The position numbers and the translations under genes were made by a program. Positions 21,590 to 44,270 of a stretch of 64,000 nucleotides of DNA are shown piece after piece (within the stretch, counting starts at the first letter, position 1; the number at the start of each line of letters is the position of its first letter). This DNA is from a virus. The notes beneath the pieces are model-generated. The model worked only from the letters and a program-made list of their open reading frames with translations. It was not told where the DNA came from and searched no databases. The stretch lies in the IMG/VR virus record IMGVR_UViG_3300033233_000015, positions 1-64,000 of that record; one strand, given 5' to 3'.

Positions 21590-23863
21590 TCATCGGAAGA
21601 TGACCAACTTGTCGGAGCTGCGCGTCACGGCCGTGTAGATCCATCGCGTTCGTTTCTCGACGGGCATCCGATGTACCCCGTCGAGCACGACGGCGACCTT
21701 CTCGGCCTGGCTCCCCTGCATCTTGTGGCACGTGAGCGCGTAGCCGTAGTCGTAGAGATCACCGAGAGACGCCAGCGGCGCGACGCCGAGCTCGCTCGCG
21801 CGGTCGAAGTCGATCGTCTTCTCGGCGTAGAACTGAAGACCGCTCATCTCGACGTCTCTCGTCAGGCCGTCTTCGGGGAAGCTCACTTGGCATGTCCACT
21901 TCGGGCGCTTCTCGTTGTCGTCGTGACCGACGTCGCTCGCGATGATGCCGCGCATGCCGTTGAAGATGGGCGGCTTGTTCTTGAGACAGATGACGGCGTC
22001 GCCCTTCTGCGGCGGTAGATCGCTCGAGCCGAAGATCGCGTGACGCGCGCTGCGGTTGATCGTCGCTCGAGTTCGGTTCGTCCAGCAAATGACGACCATC
22101 GAGAGCATGTCATCGCGACCCGGCACGAAGCTCTTCGCCACGAAGTCGCCGAGCCCTCGATCGCTCACCATCCACACGTGCTTGTCGTCGCAGAAGCGCG
22201 TGTGCACGTCGCCGTTCTCTCGGACGTACTTGCTGAGCGCGATGATGGGGTTCGACTCGGCCTGCCGATGAATCTTCTCGAGGCGGATATCGGGGTGGCG
22301 CATGAGAGATCCCGATCCGCGTACGGGCTCTAGCTGGCCGTGATCGCCGACCGCCAAGATCGGCACGTCGTAGCGAAGCATCGACTCGAGCATCTCGTCG
22401 CTCACCATCGACGCCTCGTCGACGACGATGAGCTTGTACTGTCTGTCGAGCTCCTGACGACGGATGAACCTCGCGTTGTCACACACGCGGCAGCGACCCT
22501 CCTTGCGCGGCTTCGGAGGAGGAGGATCGCAGCCGAGGCAGGGACCGAGGTCGACGCGATCGGCGAGTTCCGCGGAGTTCTCGTCAAGCCGATCGATCGC
22601 GGGAAGCGCGCGGCAGTTGAGGTTGATCCTGCGGTGTCCGTAGATCACTTCCTTCGGCATGCACTCGGGGCACGGCCTGTAGATGAGCCCATGGATCGTG
22701 CCGCAGTAGGGGAGCGACACGGGGAGTCGTTCGCCCGCCTCGTCGTAGACGGCGATGTCCGTAGTCGTCGTGACGCCGTGCTCCTTCAACTTGCGGCCGA
22801 GCACGCTCGACGCCTTGCCCGTGAACGCGCAGAACGCGAGCGGCTGCGGCAGCTCGTGCGCCAGCACCGACACTACGGTCGTCTTGCCCGTGTTGTGAAC
22901 GATGATGCCGTTGGCGACGAAGTTGTTGGCCGGTGGCTCCATCTGAACGTCGTAGGTCGCCTCTTCGCCCATCTTGCGAACGCGAATCACCTTCACGGCG
23001 CGGGTAAATTCTTTGTGGAAGTGTTTGTGGGATTCCTTTCCGTGGATGCGTGCGTGTTCGGCGTGTGGCAGCACCGACAGGTTGCTGATGTCGTCGTTGA
23101 GCGTGTCTTCGTCGATGTGATGAACGTTCATGCCCTTAGGCAGATACTTGAACGACTTCGATGCCCCCGCGTTGTGCTTGAGCGCGTGCACGAACTCTTC
23201 GTAAGAGACGTTGTTCATGGTCGCCTCCACGACCAATTTGGCGCGAGCGACACGCACGTAGTCGTACGCGACGCCGTTACACAAGACGCGCTTGCGTGAT
23301 CCGATGGGGTGGTAGCGAGTGTTGATGATCACGCGCGGCGGACGCATGTCTAGCGACCGTCGACCCGCCCCATTTCCGGCGAGCATTGCTCCTTGCGCGA
23401 GCACCTTGTCCCCCACGCTGAGCGATTCGGCCTGCACGAATTCTCCGCCAGGCGTCGCGACAGGGTGGTCTCCCGTCAGTACCAGATGCCTGCCGTTGCT
23501 GAAGTCGACGCGCATCACTGGTTTCACGCCGGAGGCCAACACCGCTACGACTCTATTGCGCGAGATGGTTCCGTCGGACCAGAGAGAGTGAAGATGCGTC
23601 GGCATCGTCAGATCGATCCATCGACCAGCGCCGCGTTGCCCGTCCACCCTGAATCCGTTGAACTTCAAGTAGAGGTCGCGGAGGCTGATAGGACGACTGC
23701 TTACGCGAGACCCGCGGCTGTACCGAACGACCGTGTCTCCAGACAGGCACCCCGCATAGCCCGCGAACGTGAGCGCCTGCTTCGTCTCCGTGCCTCGATG
23801 GAGCCACGTCAGGATGCCCGAGTACGCTTCGCGCTGGTCAGGGCTGAGGTCGTTCTTGTTCAT
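21590..23863 (-). CDS. Dda/RecD-like SF1 helicase interrupted by an intein
   Basis: 757 residues, of which 286 (39-324) are an intein that splits the Walker A loop: GYAG before it and TGKTT after it. The joined 471-residue helicase has LIVVDEASMV (motif II), ILAVGDHGQLEPV (III), WTNRTRATIN (IV), LTCHKMQGSQ (V) and YTAVTRSSDKLVI (VI), as in 5'-3' Dda/RecD-like helicases. An extra Cys-rich insert (CPEC, CLGC, CRVC) lies between motifs Ia and II. Without splicing the enzyme cannot bind ATP. The ATG at 23863 gives an ATGA overlap with the upstream gene. Confidence 0.9.
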   Translation of the reverse strand: MNKNDLSPDQREAYSGILTWLHRGTETKQALTFAGYAGCLSGDTVVRYSRGSRVSSRPISLRDLYLKFNGFRVDGQRGAGRWIDLTMPTHLHSLWSDGTISRNRVVAVLASGVKPVMRVDFSNGRHLVLTGDHPVATPGGEFVQAESLSVGDKVLAQGAMLAGNGAGRRSLDMRPPRVIINTRYHPIGSRKRVLCNGVAYDYVRVARAKLVVEATMNNVSYEEFVHALKHNAGASKSFKYLPKGMNVHHIDEDTLNDDISNLSVLPHAEHARIHGKESHKHFHKEFTRAVKVIRVRKMGEEATYDVQMEPPANNFVANGIIVHNTGKTTVVSVLAHELPQPLAFCAFTGKASSVLGRKLKEHGVTTTTDIAVYDEAGERLPVSLPYCGTIHGLIYRPCPECMPKEVIYGHRRINLNCRALPAIDRLDENSAELADRVDLGPCLGCDPPPPKPRKEGRCRVCDNARFIRRQELDRQYKLIVVDEASMVSDEMLESMLRYDVPILAVGDHGQLEPVRGSGSLMRHPDIRLEKIHRQAESNPIIALSKYVRENGDVHTRFCDDKHVWMVSDRGLGDFVAKSFVPGRDDMLSMVVICWTNRTRATINRSARHAIFGSSDLPPQKGDAVICLKNKPPIFNGMRGIIASDVGHDDNEKRPKWTCQVSFPEDGLTRDVEMSGLQFYAEKTIDFDRASELGVAPLASLGDLYDYGYALTCHKMQGSQAEKVAVVLDGVHRMPVEKRTRWIYTAVTRSSDKLVIFR
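22892..23749 (-). other. Intein with in-frame HNH homing endonuclease, in the helicase P-loop
   Basis: 286 codons. It begins with CLSGDT (block A), has GDHPV (block B) and ends with NNFVANGIIVHN followed by Thr (blocks F and G). The inner HNH domain reads GMNVHHIDEDTLNDDISNLS with a later EHARIH. The site, G-x-x-G/T-G-K-T, is a well-known intein hot spot in ATPases. Removal leaves an uninterrupted P-loop. Confidence 0.9.
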
Positions 23864-24039
23864 CGCGGCGACGTGATCGGAACGAAGATGTCGCACGCGC
23901 ACGGTTTGCCGTCGTCACGGGTGCCGGAGCACGACGGCTTGGACAAATCCTCGATCTGAGGCGATGGAGGATTCGAGAACACCAGTGATCGGTGAACATC
24001 TCGCATGTGACCGCATCGACACCTATCGTCTTTTTTCAT
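23860..24039 (-). CDS. Small Cys/His-rich zinc protein (59 aa)
   Basis: CRCGHMRDVH at the start and CSGT, CACDIF near the end give the phage-typical CxCGHxxxxH...CxC..F pattern, also seen in the 34005-34508 protein. It includes FSNPPSP. The function is unknown. ATGA overlaps on both sides. Confidence 0.6.
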   Translation of the reverse strand: MKKDDRCRCGHMRDVHRSLVFSNPPSPQIEDLSKPSCSGTRDDGKPCACDIFVPITSPR

Positions 24040-34843: not shown

Positions 34844-35181
34844 GCGATTGGGAACCAGAAGAGTACGCGGACGATCCGAAGGTCAACGCGATGCTCAACA
34901 TTGCTGCTGGCATTTTCGCCCTTGCGCGCGCGACCGACGGTCTTCTGTACGCGCTGAAATACAGCAAGGGAGAAGGCATGAGTGTCGCGGAAGCGATCGA
35001 GGTCGGCGCGAAAAACATCGCAGAAGCGATTCAACTCAGCGATCCCGAACCTGTCGAACCCGTAGACGTCGATCCAATCGTTGAGGCGATTTCTGACATG
35101 AAGATCGAACTGTCGACGGAACTGTCGCGCCTGTCGGCGGAACTGTCGGAAGCGATCTCCAAGTCATCGGACGAGCGATGA
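34840..35181 (+). CDS. Acidic helical protein (113 aa)
   Basis: Acidic, with a helix repeat near the end (ELSTELSRLSAELSEAIS) that may form a coiled coil. No family is recognised. ATGA overlaps. Confidence 0.5.
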   Translation: MSDWEPEEYADDPKVNAMLNIAAGIFALARATDGLLYALKYSKGEGMSVAEAIEVGAKNIAEAIQLSDPEPVEPVDVDPIVEAISDMKIELSTELSRLSAELSEAISKSSDER

Positions 35182-36266
35182 CCTCGCGCGTCTATCTTTG
35201 GGAGACAAAAACTACGTCTGAGGACATTTCGAACGGGTCGACGTTTTTTCTGAGAACCATTCTCGATCCGCAGCTCTCTCTCTACATACCCGCGCTGCGC
35301 ACGATGGGATTCGACCCGATCGGCGCCATCTACGACGTGCTACGCAAGCCGGGACAGTTGCCGTCGAACATTCCGCTCAAGGATGCGGACGGAGTGAAGA
35401 TCGTCTTCGACGCAGCAGGCCGGCGCGCGCGCACCAAGGACGGCAAGAAGTGGCGTGAGACGGGCGGCGACGGTCTCTTCTTGCAGACGCGACCCGAGAC
35501 TCCTGAGGAGTACGGCAAGCGTTGTCTCGGCGCCATCGCTGAGGATCCGAATAGGTACTACGCGCGGGCGAAGGTCGTGCGGCTCGAGGCCGACGAGCGC
35601 GAGGCTGCGGCGGACGTGTGGAACACGGCCACGCAGATGCGCGACGCGCGAAGACTGAAGGTGTTTGCGCGGAATCCTGATGCGTGCATGTCTTGGTCTC
35701 GTGAGTGCGACTACTTGCGCGTCTGCGCTGGGCAGGCCGACATCATGGATCCGATTCTGTTCAGGAACGAGGAGGCGCACGTCGAGTTGAAGTTGGAGAA
35801 CGAAGAGAGCGGAACCAATCTGCTCACGCAGAGCGCGATGCGTTCGTACCGTTCGTGCCCGCGCAAGTTCTACTATCGCTACGAGCTTCGTCAGCGACCG
35901 CTCAGCAAAGCGGAGGCGCTGACCACTGGCAACTCGGTACACGAGGCGCTCGACGTCTTCCGTCGCACCTGTTCGCTCGATGCGGCGCTGGTGGCGCTCA
36001 CGACCGACGATCTCTACGTGCGCGCGAAGGAGGCGGCGATGCTCGTCGGCTACGCCGCGCGCTGGCCGACTCCGCGAGGCGTCATCGCAATCGAAAAGCA
36101 GTTCCGCATCCCGCTCATCAACCCCGCTACCTGCGCACCGAGCAAGACGTTCGAACTTGGCGGAAAGGTCGACGCGATCGTTGAGGAGGAGGCCGCGCTC
36201 GCGTCGCTTGAACCGAGTTTGGAGTACGTGCTCGAAGGTTCGTTGAAGGAGGAGGCTGTTCCGTGA
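35178..36266 (+). CDS. Circularly permuted PD-(D/E)XK (RecB-family) nuclease
   Basis: A 362-residue protein whose two halves are in reverse order compared with the common phage PD-(D/E)XK family. It starts with the usual C-terminal half: WETKTTSEDIS (Glu9 and Lys11), DPQLSLY, IYDVLRKP, RTKDGKKWRETG, TRPETPEEYG, and RNPDACMS with a Cys pair. Only then follows the usual N-terminal half: LTQSAMRSYRSCPRKFYYRY, a GNSVHEALD helix, and GGKVDAIVEE with the catalytic Asp332 30 residues before the stop. The cut is between the active-site Asp and the ExK. It is directly followed (GTGA) by an HNH gene. It could be active through permutation or dimer swapping. Confidence 0.85.
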   Translation: MTSRVYLWETKTTSEDISNGSTFFLRTILDPQLSLYIPALRTMGFDPIGAIYDVLRKPGQLPSNIPLKDADGVKIVFDAAGRRARTKDGKKWRETGGDGLFLQTRPETPEEYGKRCLGAIAEDPNRYYARAKVVRLEADEREAAADVWNTATQMRDARRLKVFARNPDACMSWSRECDYLRVCAGQADIMDPILFRNEEAHVELKLENEESGTNLLTQSAMRSYRSCPRKFYYRYELRQRPLSKAEALTTGNSVHEALDVFRRTCSLDAALVALTTDDLYVRAKEAAMLVGYAARWPTPRGVIAIEKQFRIPLINPATCAPSKTFELGGKVDAIVEEEAALASLEPSLEYVLEGSLKEEAVP

Positions 36267-36814
36267 GCTACGGCGGAACGCATCGACGCAACGATCTGAC
36301 TGGCGAAGTCTTTGGACGCTGGACTGTCGTTCGTCGCGTTGAGAATCGCCAGAGGCCGAGCGGAGTGATGGCGATGTACGAATGCCTATGTGTCTGCGGC
36401 GTCGTGAAGACGGTCCTCGCTCAAACGCTTCGATCCAGCAGTTCGCGCTCGTGCGGGTGTTTGCTGAAAGACGTCGCGGCGGAAATGTGCCGCGCACGAT
36501 CGACGCACGGTCATTCGCGCGGTGGAAAATTGACGCCGACGTTTCGTTCGTGGATTTCAATGCATGACCGCGTCCGATCAAATAATCCGAACAGCAAGCC
36601 GTATTACAAGGATCTTGGCATTCGCGTCTGCGACCGTTGGTCCGACTTCGAGAATTTCTTGAAAGACATGGGCGACAGGCCGTCGCTTCTCCATTCGCTC
36701 GATCGGTTCCCGAATGGCGATGGCAACTACGAGCCAGGCAATGTGCGTTGGGCGACCAGCGTGGAGCAGACCTTCAATCGCAAGAAGAGGAAACTTCCGA
36801 AAGGATCAACATGA
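36263..36814 (+). CDS. HNH/AP2-like homing endonuclease
   Basis: A 183-residue protein. FGRWTVVRRVE, CLCVCG, SCGCL, a basic helix with THGHSRGGK, YYKDLGIRVCDRW, FENFLKDMGDRPS, SLDRFPNGDGNYEPGNVRWA and Q.FNRK together form the common phage HNH type with the NVRWAT ending. It lies exactly at the end of the permuted nuclease and before the Sak4-like gene, joined by 4-nt overlaps. Confidence 0.82.
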   Translation: MSYGGTHRRNDLTGEVFGRWTVVRRVENRQRPSGVMAMYECLCVCGVVKTVLAQTLRSSSSRSCGCLLKDVAAEMCRARSTHGHSRGGKLTPTFRSWISMHDRVRSNNPNSKPYYKDLGIRVCDRWSDFENFLKDMGDRPSLLHSLDRFPNGDGNYEPGNVRWATSVEQTFNRKKRKLPKGST

Positions 36815-37716
36815 TCGATCTGAAACGAATCACCGAAGGCAAGCAACAGCGCGAGCCGCGCGTCCTGATCTACTCCGCCGACGGCGTCGGTAAGACGCGA
36901 TTCGCGGCGGGTGCGCCCGATCCGTTCTTCATTGACGTCAATCGAGGCAGCTTCCAGTACGACGTCAAGCGCGTCGTGCCGGAGACGTGGAGCGAAGTGC
37001 TCGAATGGGTCGGCGCCGTCGAGCGCGGCGACATCAAGTGCAAGACGCTCGTCATCGACTCGATCAGTGACCTCGAGCACATCGGCAACGCGGAATTTTT
37101 TCCAAACACGACCATCGACAAATGGGACGGCGGATATGGACGCGGAACGGGCTACGCGGTGACGCGCTGGCGCGAGTTCGTCTCCGCCCTTGAGCGCGTT
37201 TGGAACGCCGGCAAGTCGATAGTCCTGATCGGCCACATGCAGGTGAAGCGGTTCGACGACCCGACCGGAGTCGGTTACGAGCGGTATCAGATCGCTGCTC
37301 GCGAACAACTCGCAGGTCTCCTTCGTCAATGGGTAGACTTCGTTCTCTTCGCGAATCTCGAGGTCGCGCAGCAGAAGGTCGGCGGCGACGTCAAGATGGT
37401 GACGAACGGCACGCGATGGATCCACACGCAGCGATCCCCCGCCTTCGACGCCAAGAGTCGAGGCACGACGCTCTTCCCCGAGAAGGTGCTCCTGTCGTGG
37501 GACGAGTTCGCCAAGGCGCGCGCGGCCGACACTGCGCGCGCGGAGGAGTTGAAGCGAGAGATCGAGTCGATGCTCAAAGAGATCGGCGACAAGAAGCTCG
37601 ACGAGATCGTCAAGGAGTACCTGCGCGCGAACCCCGGCATGGTGGTCGAGGCGCGCAACCGCGTGGCGTCGAAGTTGGAAGAGAAGAGAGCGAGTTCGAA
37701 GGAGAACGACAAATGA
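36811..37716 (+). CDS. Sak4-like RecA-fold ATPase (AAA_24 type)
   Basis: A 301-residue protein. YSADGVGKT (21-29) is Walker A and TLVIDSIS (about 78-85) is Walker B. SIVLIGHMQVKRF and a long helical Lys/Glu tail follow. Phage Sak4-type proteins load on single-stranded DNA and promote annealing. The next gene is a single-strand binding protein, the usual partner. ATGA overlaps. Confidence 0.82.
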   Translation: MIDLKRITEGKQQREPRVLIYSADGVGKTRFAAGAPDPFFIDVNRGSFQYDVKRVVPETWSEVLEWVGAVERGDIKCKTLVIDSISDLEHIGNAEFFPNTTIDKWDGGYGRGTGYAVTRWREFVSALERVWNAGKSIVLIGHMQVKRFDDPTGVGYERYQIAAREQLAGLLRQWVDFVLFANLEVAQQKVGGDVKMVTNGTRWIHTQRSPAFDAKSRGTTLFPEKVLLSWDEFAKARAADTARAEELKREIESMLKEIGDKKLDEIVKEYLRANPGMVVEARNRVASKLEEKRASSKENDK

Positions 37717-38231
37717 TCAGTCCGGGGAATTACAAGGCCAAGGCAGTCAAGAGCAGCGTGCAGTTCGGCGAGACCGAGCGAGGCAATCTCCAGATCGCGG
37801 TCGATCTGGACATCAAGAACGAGAAGGGGGAGTCGCTCGGCACGATGACGACGTTCCTCTTCTTCACCGACGCCTCGCAGAGCTACTCGTACGAGCGACT
37901 GCGCGCGCTCGGGTGGCAGGGCAAAGGTCCCGAAGAGGTCGACAACATGGAGGGCATCGACGCGAACGAGGTCGAAGTTCGCGTCACGCAGCCAGAGTCG
38001 TACAAGGCGCCCGACGGCACGATGAAGATGGGACAGAGCAAGGTCGAGATCACGACGGGTGCCGGAAAGGTCGTGCTCGCGAAGACGGTCGACGCCTCGA
38101 CGTTCAAGGCTCGATTGAAAGCGCTCGGCGGCGGCGGTGCAGCTCCGTCGGGCGGCAGCAGCGGCGGAGCAGCGGCGCCGCCGTTCATCTTCAACACGAT
38201 CGAGGCGGACGAGCCGTGGTGGAGGGGCTGA
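37713..38231 (+). CDS. Single-strand DNA-binding-like protein (OB fold, DUF669-like)
   Basis: A 172-residue protein. The N-terminal 140 residues are strand-rich (GNYKAKAVKSSVQFGETERG, MTTFLFFTDAS), then a Gly/Ser-rich linker and an acidic aromatic tip (DEPWW) as in bacterial SSB tails. It follows the Sak4-like gene, as expected. The family call is by pattern. Confidence 0.65.
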   Translation: MISPGNYKAKAVKSSVQFGETERGNLQIAVDLDIKNEKGESLGTMTTFLFFTDASQSYSYERLRALGWQGKGPEEVDNMEGIDANEVEVRVTQPESYKAPDGTMKMGQSKVEITTGAGKVVLAKTVDASTFKARLKALGGGGAAPSGGSSGGAAAPPFIFNTIEADEPWWRG

Positions 38232-41246: not shown

Positions 41247-41659
41247 AAGCCCTATCCCTCCGCCAGCCGTGGGCCGCGCTCGTCGTGCACTTCGGCAAGC
41301 ACATCGAGAATCGGCGCTGGAACACCTCGTTCCGTGGCGAGTTCCTCATCCACGCGGCCAAGGGCATGACGAATCGCGAGTTCGAGGAAGCGATGGACTT
41401 CGCGTTTGAGTTGATCGGCGACAAGTGCCCGACCGAAGCGCAGCTCCGATCGATGCTCATGTTCGGTGGCATCGTCGGTCGCGCGAATCTTGTCGATGTG
41501 ATTCCCCCGCGATCGATGTTCTATCCGTCGGGCGTCGAGCGCGGGTGGCACATGCCCGAGCAGTACGGCTTCGTCCTCGAGAGCGTCGCGCCGCTGACGT
41601 TCGAACCGATGCGCGGCGAGCTCGGGTTCTTCGAGGTTCGGAAGGTGGCCAATGTCTGA
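41243..41659 (+). CDS. ASCH-domain protein
   Basis: A 138-residue protein: MKALSLRQPWAALVVHFGK, IENRRWNTSFRGEFLIHAAK and a GELGFFEV end are typical of ASCH domains, which bind RNA or modified nucleosides. The neighbourhood of DNA-modification genes fits a nucleotide-related role. It overlaps the methyltransferase gene by 8 nt. Confidence 0.8.
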   Translation: MKALSLRQPWAALVVHFGKHIENRRWNTSFRGEFLIHAAKGMTNREFEEAMDFAFELIGDKCPTEAQLRSMLMFGGIVGRANLVDVIPPRSMFYPSGVERGWHMPEQYGFVLESVAPLTFEPMRGELGFFEVRKVANV

Positions 41660-44270
41660 CTACCGCATCCTCCAAGGCGACGCGCTCGAGCGTCTTCGCG
41701 AACTGCCGTCCGACTCGTTCGACGCGATGCTCTGCGATCCGCCGGCCGGAATTTCGTTCATGAACAAAAAGTGGGATGGCGATAAGGGCGGACGCGATCA
41801 GTGGATCGCGTGGCTCGCCGACGTCATGCGCGAGGCGAGGCGATGTTTGAAGCCTGGCGCGTACGCGCTCGTGTGGGCGCTTCCCCGCACGTCGCACTGG
41901 ACCGCGATGGCGATCGAGAACGCGGGCTTCGAGGTGCGCGATGTCGTCACGCATGTCTTCGGGTGTCTGAGCGATGACACCGAAATACTGCTCGATTCAG
42001 GGTGGACCCGCTACCGTAATATCGACGAAGGTGATCTCGCACTTTGCTACGATGCGGAGCATGACGAGTTCCGATGGCAGCGCGTCGAGGAAGTCGTCTC
42101 CTACGCCTACGCGGATACCGCCTTCCGTATTCGCTCGGATCGTACAGACCAGCTCGTCTCCCGCGAGCACCGCTGCCTCGTTGAACGAGATGGAGGCTAC
42201 GCTTTCGCGCGAGCAGACTCACTGGAACGCGAAGCGCGTGTACCCGTTCTGGAAGACGTGCACGAACTGCTCGCAGCCCTTCCCGTGCCATACGAGGGAA
42301 CAGGCGGTTCGGAACGCATCGTGTGCGGGGTGTCACGGATCGCTCATCTCGAAGGCGAAAAAGGGTGTCTACCGAACGCCCGCAGCGACATGCCTGCATT
42401 GTCGCAAGACGTTCCGTCGTCATCGAGGTCAGCCGACATCGCGCGCGAAATACTGCACCAAAAAATGTTGGGGAGCTGCACGGTCAGCGGACCCGAAGTT
42501 CGCGGCGAAGATGCGGAAGATCGGGGCATTGGGTCGGTCGGGATGGACGGCCGCGAGCGCGGACTCGTATCGGGAGAAGATGAGCGGAGCGAAGAATCCG
42601 GCCTGGCGGGGCGGAGTCACTTTCAAGCGGAACAAGGGGAACTACATCGGGCCGAAGTACGTGAGATGTCCGAAGGTGTTCGCCAAGATGTCGCGCAAGG
42701 ACGGCTACGTGATGGAGCATCGACTAGTCGTCGCTCAGCAGATCGGTCGCTCGCTGACGCGCACGGAGTCAGTGCACCACGAAGACCACAACACGCGGAA
42801 CAACTCACCATCGAACCTTCTGCTCTTCGCGACGAACCGAGATCACAAGCTGTACGAGGCGCACGGTTCACCCGCACCGATCTGGCGACTGTAGAGCCCG
42901 TTCTGTACGAGGGCATCGTCTGGTGCGTTCGGGTGCCGACGGGGGCGTTCGTCGCGCGTCGTAACGGCAAGGCGTTCGTCACGGGTAATTCTGGTTTCCC
43001 GAAGTCGCTCGATCTGTCGAAAGCGATCGACGCGCACTTCGGCGCCGAGCGCGAGGTCGTCGGCACGCGAACGCTGACGGGCAACGCAGCGGTCTCGACG
43101 AAGGAGAAGGGCGGCACGTACGGTGTGCAAGTCGGCACCGCGCCGGCGAAAGAGGTCGATGTGACGACGGCGGCGACGCCAGAGGCCGCTGCGTACGACG
43201 GCTACGGCACGGCGCTGAAGCCCGCCTCCGAGCACTGGATCCTCGCGCGCAAGCCGCTCGAGGGGACGTACGCGGAGAACGCGTTGAAGTGGGGGACGGG
43301 AGGGATCGCGATCGATGCGTGCCGCATCGGATACGCCAGCGAGGGCGATCAAGCAGCAGCAGCGCAACGAGCGTGCCACGATCAGAACGCGGGTCGCACG
43401 GCCTACGGCGACTTCAACAACGGCGCAGCGTCGCTGCCTGGCTACTTCGAGAAGCAGGCGCTCGGCCGATGGCCCGCGAACCTCATGCTGTCGCACGCGG
43501 ACGGGTGCGAGCGGACCGGCTCGTCGACGTCGATACGATCCGTACCGCGCGGCGTCTCGGTGCGAAATAACAAGAACGCGATCTACGGCCCTGGCCTCGG
43601 CGGTCGGCCGGAAAAGGTCGAAGAGGTCGAAGAGGTCGAAGAGGTCGAAGAGGTCTTCTCGTGCGTCTCGGGATGCCCTGTCAAGCTCCTCGACGAACAG
43701 AGCGGCGATCGTCCCGGCATGTCCGGCGGCGGCGCGCACCACTCGGAGTACGAGGGCGGCATGTTCGGCGCGATCGACTCGACGTCGACGGCGCGCGCGG
43801 ACACGGGCGGCGCGTCGCGCTTCTTCTACGTCGCCAAGGCCAGCCGCTTCGAGCGCGAGCTCGGATGCGAACATCTTCCGAAGAAGTCGGCGGGCGAGAT
43901 GGTCGATCGCGAGGACGAGAGCGACGGTATGAAGAGCCCACGCGCTGGCGCGGGCCGCACGGGCGGAGCGCGCAACCATCACCCCACGATCAAGAGCGTC
44001 GCGCTCGCGACGTACCTGGCAAAGCTCATCAAGCCGCCGAAGTCCGCGAGGCTGCTCAATCCGTTTGCCGGATCGGGCACCGAGGGCATCGGCGCGATGC
44101 GCGCGGGCTTCGACGAGATCGTCTGCATCGAACTAGAGCCCGAGTACGTCGCCATCGCCGAAGCTCGCTTCGCGCGATGGTCGGAGATCCCCACGCACGT
44201 CAACCCGCAGGAGTCCAAACCCGCGAAGGTGGACGAGCGGCAGGCGTCGCTCTTCGGAGGTTCGCGATGA
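41652..44270 (+). CDS. DNA methyltransferase (beta class, N4/N6) with an intein
   Basis: 872 residues. The extein has CDPPAGISFM (28-37, catalytic DPPx motif) and, in the C-terminal part, LLNPFAGSGTEGIG (FxGxG SAM motif): the order of beta-class N6-adenine or N4-cytosine methyltransferases. Residues 105-446 are an intein between THVFG and SGFPKSLD, a conserved spot near the active site. A tract of KVEEVEEVEEVEEV comes from a 9-bp repeat. The target site cannot be read from the sequence. Confidence 0.9.
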   Translation: MSDYRILQGDALERLRELPSDSFDAMLCDPPAGISFMNKKWDGDKGGRDQWIAWLADVMREARRCLKPGAYALVWALPRTSHWTAMAIENAGFEVRDVVTHVFGCLSDDTEILLDSGWTRYRNIDEGDLALCYDAEHDEFRWQRVEEVVSYAYADTAFRIRSDRTDQLVSREHRCLVERDGGYAFARADSLEREARVPVLEDVHELLAALPVPYEGTGGSERIVCGVSRIAHLEGEKGCLPNARSDMPALSQDVPSSSRSADIAREILHQKMLGSCTVSGPEVRGEDAEDRGIGSVGMDGRERGLVSGEDERSEESGLAGRSHFQAEQGELHRAEVREMSEGVRQDVAQGRLRDGASTSRRSADRSLADAHGVSAPRRPQHAEQLTIEPSALRDEPRSQAVRGARFTRTDLATVEPVLYEGIVWCVRVPTGAFVARRNGKAFVTGNSGFPKSLDLSKAIDAHFGAEREVVGTRTLTGNAAVSTKEKGGTYGVQVGTAPAKEVDVTTAATPEAAAYDGYGTALKPASEHWILARKPLEGTYAENALKWGTGGIAIDACRIGYASEGDQAAAAQRACHDQNAGRTAYGDFNNGAASLPGYFEKQALGRWPANLMLSHADGCERTGSSTSIRSVPRGVSVRNNKNAIYGPGLGGRPEKVEEVEEVEEVEEVFSCVSGCPVKLLDEQSGDRPGMSGGGAHHSEYEGGMFGAIDSTSTARADTGGASRFFYVAKASRFERELGCEHLPKKSAGEMVDREDESDGMKSPRAGAGRTGGARNHHPTIKSVALATYLAKLIKPPKSARLLNPFAGSGTEGIGAMRAGFDEIVCIELEPEYVAIAEARFARWSEIPTHVNPQESKPAKVDERQASLFGGSR
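41964..42989 (+). other. Intein in the DNA methyltransferase, with out-of-frame HNH gene inside
   Basis: 342 codons from CLSDDTEILLDSGW (block A) through REHRCLVERDGGYAFARADS (block B) to GAFVARRNGKAFVTGN followed by Ser (blocks F and G). About 200 codons between blocks B and F have no intein or endonuclease features in this frame; the HNH domain is instead encoded in the +1 frame (42190-42894). The frame stays open throughout, so splicing is still possible. Confidence 0.85.
42190..42894 (+). CDS. HNH homing endonuclease nested out of frame in the intein
   Basis: About 234 residues in the +1 frame relative to the methyltransferase. Three Cys pairs (CTNCSQPF, CAGC, CLHC followed by CTKKC) precede a NPAWRGG segment, GYVMEHRLVVAQQIGR and SVHHEDHNTRNNSPSNLLLF, the HNH core of common phage nucleases. 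It ends with a TAG just before intein block F. Start candidates are ATG 42190 or GTG 42237; neither has a strong ribosome site, so frameshifting from the intein is also possible. Confidence 0.75.
   Translation: MEATLSREQTHWNAKRVYPFWKTCTNCSQPFPCHTREQAVRNASCAGCHGSLISKAKKGVYRTPAATCLHCRKTFRRHRGQPTSRAKYCTKKCWGAARSADPKFAAKMRKIGALGRSGWTAASADSYREKMSGAKNPAWRGGVTFKRNKGNYIGPKYVRCPKVFAKMSRKDGYVMEHRLVVAQQIGRSLTRTESVHHEDHNTRNNSPSNLLLFATNRDHKLYEAHGSPAPIWRL
43614..43658 (+). repeat. 9-bp tandem repeat in the methyltransferase gene
   Basis: Four copies of (G/A)AGGTCGAA followed by a partial copy GAGGTCTTC, encoding a Val-Glu-Glu repeat. The copy number could vary without shifting the frame. Confidence 0.75.

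Follow-up and report, generated by a model that had tools for sequence, protein, structure and literature searches.

A gene in the 64,000-nucleotide stretch of viral DNA analysed here (the window) very likely encodes a natural, working circular permutant of an Fe-S-type, RecB/AddB/Cas4-like PD-(D/E)XK nuclease, its function being predicted. Ordinary members of the family have three blocks in the order a-b-C (a, N-terminal helices; b, strand with the catalytic Asp; C, half with the ExK motif), whereas the window protein has the order C-a-b. Each block is present once, the native ends are joined, and the new ends are located in the hairpin between the Asp and ExK strands. This reading is based on block order, residue conservation, selection, nesting in trees and synteny, and on a predicted fold; from these we infer an Fe-S cluster, a single active site, an origin by duplication, and a role in end resection.

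The ORF (362 aa) starts with an ATG that overlaps the stop codon of the upstream ORF (ATGA); its parts and neighbours are listed in Table 1. Block C carries E9xK11, Q32xxxY36, and Cys170/177/183; the joint leads from HVEL, where the native protein ends, to LLTQS, where it begins; block a carries Cys227 and G251xxxH255; the a/b linker is the site where relatives of order b-C-a are cut; block b carries Glu306 and GGKV-Asp332, the catalytic Asp strand. The new C-terminal tail, with AF2 pLDDT below 50 at residues 351-357 and 359-362, is a variable extra with an LE..LE.SL pattern in the window protein, L004, L046, and L045, and is absent in others.

Table 1 Coordinates of the permuted nuclease gene, its parts, its neighbours, and two differently cut relatives. 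Positions are those of the window unless a locus is named.
Feature	Position	Strand	Basis
Permuted PD-(D/E)XK nuclease gene, order C-a-b	35178..36266	+	ORF, translation, profile matches, block order
Block C, residues 4-204, normally C-terminal half	35187..35789	+	Block HMM; motifs invariant across orders
Joint, residues 205-214	35790..35819	+	Joints compared in all C-a-b members
Block a, residues 215-260, normally N-terminus	35820..35957	+	Block HMM; invariant Cys, His
a/b linker with helix, residues 261-277	35958..36008	+	AF2 helix 267-272; b-C-a protein ends
Block b, residues 278-335	36009..36182	+	Block HMM; residue positions
New C-terminal tail, residues 336-362	36183..36263	+	Mostly low AF2 confidence
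HNH endonuclease ORF, neighbour	36263..36814	+	phrog_374 E=7e-52
Sak4-like single-strand annealing protein gene	36811..37716	+	phrog_124 E=3e-37; AAA_24
b-C-a form cut after linker helix	L006:332-1414, L245:2858-4075

The original prediction held that all blocks of the RecB-type phage nuclease are present in permuted order, with the new ends between the catalytic Asp and the ExK; block HMMs and swapped profile matches agree with this, the positions of Glu9, Lys11, and Asp332 (there misprinted as As332) were found as given in the translation, and the site of the new ends corresponds to a beta-hairpin turn in the ordinary form (strands 128-144 and 150-158 in the AF2 model of the ordinary relative L012). 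PHROG 1218 (exonuclease, E=5e-20) matches the window protein in two stretches, with profile positions 4-151 on residues 210-338; Pfam PF12705 (PDDEXK_1; E=1.5e-13, 51.8 bits against a cut-off of 22) has its first half, profile positions 2-135, on residues 216-338. Permuted relatives (L010, L006, and L245) likewise match PDDEXK_1 in two stretches, while the ordinary relatives L012 and L054, taken as controls, match it collinearly (3 to 246); the swap is thus no peculiarity of the profile. All motifs of the RecB/AddB/Cas4 branch were found (D332, E9/K11, upstream H255, Q32/Y36), in an order other than the linear His - Asp - ExK - QxxxY, since ExK and QxxxY precede His and Asp. Judged by the homology of both halves, the window protein is a member of the PD-(D/E)XK superfamily in its RecB/AddB/Cas4-like branch.

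Relatives were collected from IMG/VR (five scans), GTDB genomes (one scan), and deposited phages, giving about 270 loci, many of them the same contigs overlapping; the scan with ordinary-order members used a narrowed alignment because the full set was too diverse. Profile HMMs of blocks a, b, and C sorted the 142 distinct complete members into 83 of order a-b-C, 44 of order b-C-a, and 15 of order C-a-b, the window included. The same order as in the window, to be sought in other phages according to the original prediction, thus recurs in 14 further distinct homologues, each a single ORF. These come from independent metagenomes, and the first five C-a-b members share 58-68% identity per half. 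An order shared by fifteen distinct sequences reflects neither chance nor an assembly error, and the case in which the halves are two neighbouring genes and the ORF a fusion artefact was not borne out. Only the oddity of the block order would suggest that the gene is misassembled, a pseudogene, or two neighbouring half-genes fused by chance; intact single ORFs on many independent contigs, low dN/dS, and conserved Sak4 and DnaQ neighbours make this explanation extremely improbable, and it was rejected on account of the first of these. In one bacterial MAG relative (L118:3785-4578) the C block is split across two reading frames, which probably reflects decay of this copy or a frameshift.

The C-a-b members are uniform in their construction: the start codon lies 6 to 8 residues before the ExK Glu in all members with an intact 5' end, the cut is the hairpin between the catalytic strands, and at the joint the native C-terminal HxEL is followed by 8-14 residues and then the native N-terminal LLTxS. 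The 44 members of order b-C-a represent a second natural permutation, cut in the a/b linker, which is also present in the deposited phages Tunturi_1 and Tunturi_2, where the gene is annotated plainly as exonuclease. The cut precedes the linker helix in most of the main b-C-a clade and in the Tunturi phages; the L006 and L245 proteins begin beyond the helix and have it at their C-terminus.

Both halves of the C-a-b members are under purifying selection: dN/dS over the C-a-b protein was 0.04-0.29, and each half stayed below 0.4. Over the joint region values were mostly 0.01-0.35, reaching 0.85 in one short comparison, with the window, single values there being weak because the stretch is short. 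None of the residues D332, E9, K11, Q32, Y36, and H255 varies within the aligned C-a-b clade. As the cut falls within the catalytic motif, the permuted protein could be imagined to have lost nuclease activity and to serve another role, e.g., DNA binding or as a scaffold for Sak4; invariant catalytic residues together with purifying selection are not expected after loss of catalysis, and we regard this explanation as very unlikely.

The AF2 model of the window protein is a single domain (pLDDT 93, pTM 0.86). Because ordinary relatives entered its alignment as fragments, about 13 C-a-b rows carry the information on how the halves pair; the row of the phage-record locus L041 was left out of the alignment for one structure prediction. 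The model of L012 (pLDDT 85.8, pTM 0.81) matches the folds of AdnA, ACE1 (a Cas4 family protein), AddB, RecE, and MGME1 at E<0.001, and that of Cas4 SSO0001 at 0.0015. With the permuted model, a sequential search of the PDB gave no match below 0.001 (best AddAB, 0.046), as expected from a permutation; against viral models, its named matches below 0.001 were PD-(D/E)XK nucleases. A sequence search for solved relatives with the alignment of ordinary members gave nothing significant. The permuted chain probably keeps the shape and active site of the ordinary enzyme; D332 is predicted to be co-located with E9/K11, on the strength of AF2 confidence scores and homology. With the native ends joined and the new ends in a hairpin turn, one monomer should assemble one active site. 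The same contacts would also serve in a domain-swapped dimer, in which the active site lies between chains and is built from the C half of one and the ab half of the other, and the shortness of the joint (8-14 residues) would suit such an arrangement. We consider it unlikely, as AF2 packs both halves of a single chain (pTM 0.86), and as three Cys just before the joint and one just after it would keep the halves of one chain close.

These four Cys have the layout of an Fe-S type nuclease when put in ordinary order, with one in the N-terminal region (block a) and three at the end of C. All four are present without exception among the aligned members of the a-b-C, b-C-a, and C-a-b orders, and the three of block C are also invariant across a mixed alignment. 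The Fe-S clusters of AddB and Cas4 use a C-x2-C-x5-C spacing, and some ordinary members of the family have this spacing. From this pattern, the four Cys are probable ligands of a putative Fe-S cluster. Such a cluster, tying the native N- and C-terminal regions together, may explain why permutation is tolerated: with the native ends already tied, little should be lost when they are joined and the chain is opened at another loop.

As for the origin of the window gene, the most likely course begins with a tandem duplication of an ancestral phage gene in a-b-C order; the duplicate would then have been trimmed to C-a-b as a start codon arose ahead of the ExK strand and a stop behind the Asp strand. 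The resulting chain would fold like the ordinary enzyme, its joint connecting native ends held by the four Cys ligands of the putative Fe-S cluster and its new ends at the hairpin turn that separates the catalytic Asp strand from the ExK strand. In the standard model, permutation arises through duplication (PMC3320104). That the gene was duplicated in tandem and then lost its outer halves had already been put forward; the joint, which keeps HxEL and then LLTxS, is consistent with this, the route itself being conjectural, and duplicated intermediates, sought among all loci, were not found.

A maximum-likelihood tree was made for 114 members with their blocks re-ordered to a common order. The C-a-b sequences group as a single clade (100/100) inside the ordinary-order proteins, with the ordinary L054 as its sister (95/88), and the tree needs five order changes in all. 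The Pfam and PHROG profiles have the ordinary order, and the permuted clades are nested within a background of ordinary-order sequences; on these grounds a-b-C was taken as ancestral. A single clade for all b-C-a sequences was rejected (AU p=0.005), and trees of C only and of ab only both give the C-a-b clade and more than one origin of b-C-a; a common origin of all permuted forms was therefore discarded, C-a-b and b-C-a being separate in the trees. One clade of L006 and L245 was not rejected (p=0.064), so that two b-C-a events for L006/L007 and L245 are not firmly shown; they were counted as one, as they stand near each other in the ab-only tree. Tunturi/L182 was not counted separately because its branch is long and it may belong to the main b-C-a clade. 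On this conservative count, permutation occurred independently at least three times, giving rise to the main b-C-a clade, to the L006/L245 type, and to C-a-b. We give about even chances to the broader proposal that the Fe-S staple makes the start of the chain irrelevant and has thereby let the family be rewired repeatedly, in three or more events at two to three cut sites. In L006, the C part is nearest to L013 and the ab part to L199/L245, which suggests that this permuted gene also underwent recombination.

To our knowledge, single catalytic domains are not often circularly permuted in nature, and a family that was permuted repeatedly and independently while its ordinary form stayed widespread is rarer still. 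In the literature searched, coverage of which was incomplete, no permuted RecB/Cas4-type nuclease was found; a 2012 survey of the PD-(D/E)XK superfamily reportedly may discuss permutations. With the nucleases of PHROG 1218 and PF12705 (RecB/AddB/Cas4-type), the window protein shares GxxxH, GGKxD, ExK, QxxxY, the four Cys, and a Sak4 neighbour; it differs from them in its order (C-a-b instead of a-b-C) and in having its chain ends between the catalytic Asp and the ExK. The exonucleases of the Tunturiibacter phages Tunturi_1 and Tunturi_2 (PP887698, PP885685) belong to the same family, are permuted, and are encoded shortly upstream of a Sak4-like gene, but are of the b-C-a form cut in the a/b linker. 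AddB, Cas4, and ACE1, Fe-S nucleases resembling the family in the L012 fold matches and in the Cys spacing of some ordinary members, have the ordinary order; unlike the window nuclease, AddB is part of a helicase-nuclease and Cas4 part of CRISPR adaptation. The closest known parallels are permuted DNA methyltransferases and Type I S subunits, DNA-acting enzymes with repeated natural circular permutation (PMC7824862, PMC3320104, PMC3874165), which have unrelated folds and are not nucleases of the PD-(D/E)XK superfamily. In the present nuclease family, one of the cuts (C-a-b) splits the catalytic motif itself, and the natural set of a-b-C, b-C-a, and C-a-b forms offers a test of whether a metal cluster that ties the ends makes a fold permutable. 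Since linear profiles detect permutants only piece by piece and a sequential fold search may not find them at all, similar permutants have probably been overlooked elsewhere.

Of 141 relatives, which cover all three orders, 138 have a Sak4-like gene no more than about 3 kb downstream, a linkage to an annealing protein as expected of a phage recombination exonuclease. Sak4 of phage HK620 anneals single strands, aided by its SSB (PMC5928155). Because the Sak4 gene is downstream of nearly all members, the nuclease would most likely be the end-resecting partner in a phage recombination module, providing single strands for Sak4. The differing block orders might alter docking of the enzyme with Sak4 or its SSB, or permit escape from an inhibitor. 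An HNH gene directly follows the nuclease gene, as noticed before, its ORF overlapping that of the nuclease by four bases; among C-a-b relatives, seven have a related HNH gene upstream and one has it downstream, and none was detected in the others. With its position varying in this way, the HNH gene is a neighbour only and not a part of the enzyme, and it was ruled out as a part or cause of the permutation.

The ORF after Sak4 (window positions 37719-38231, + strand) is conserved in many relatives and gave no PHROG match; it occupies the place of an annotated ssDNA-binding protein in the Tunturi phages. Two further ORFs of the window appear to be interrupted by inteins: an 872-aa DNA methyltransferase (41652-44270, + strand), with an intein-like insert from approximately CLSDDTEILLDSGW to AFVTGN and the host sequence restarting at SGFPKS; and a Dda-like helicase (21590-23902, - strand), with a probable HNH-bearing intein in the Walker A loop (junctions GYAG / CLSGDTVV...IIVHN / TGKTT).
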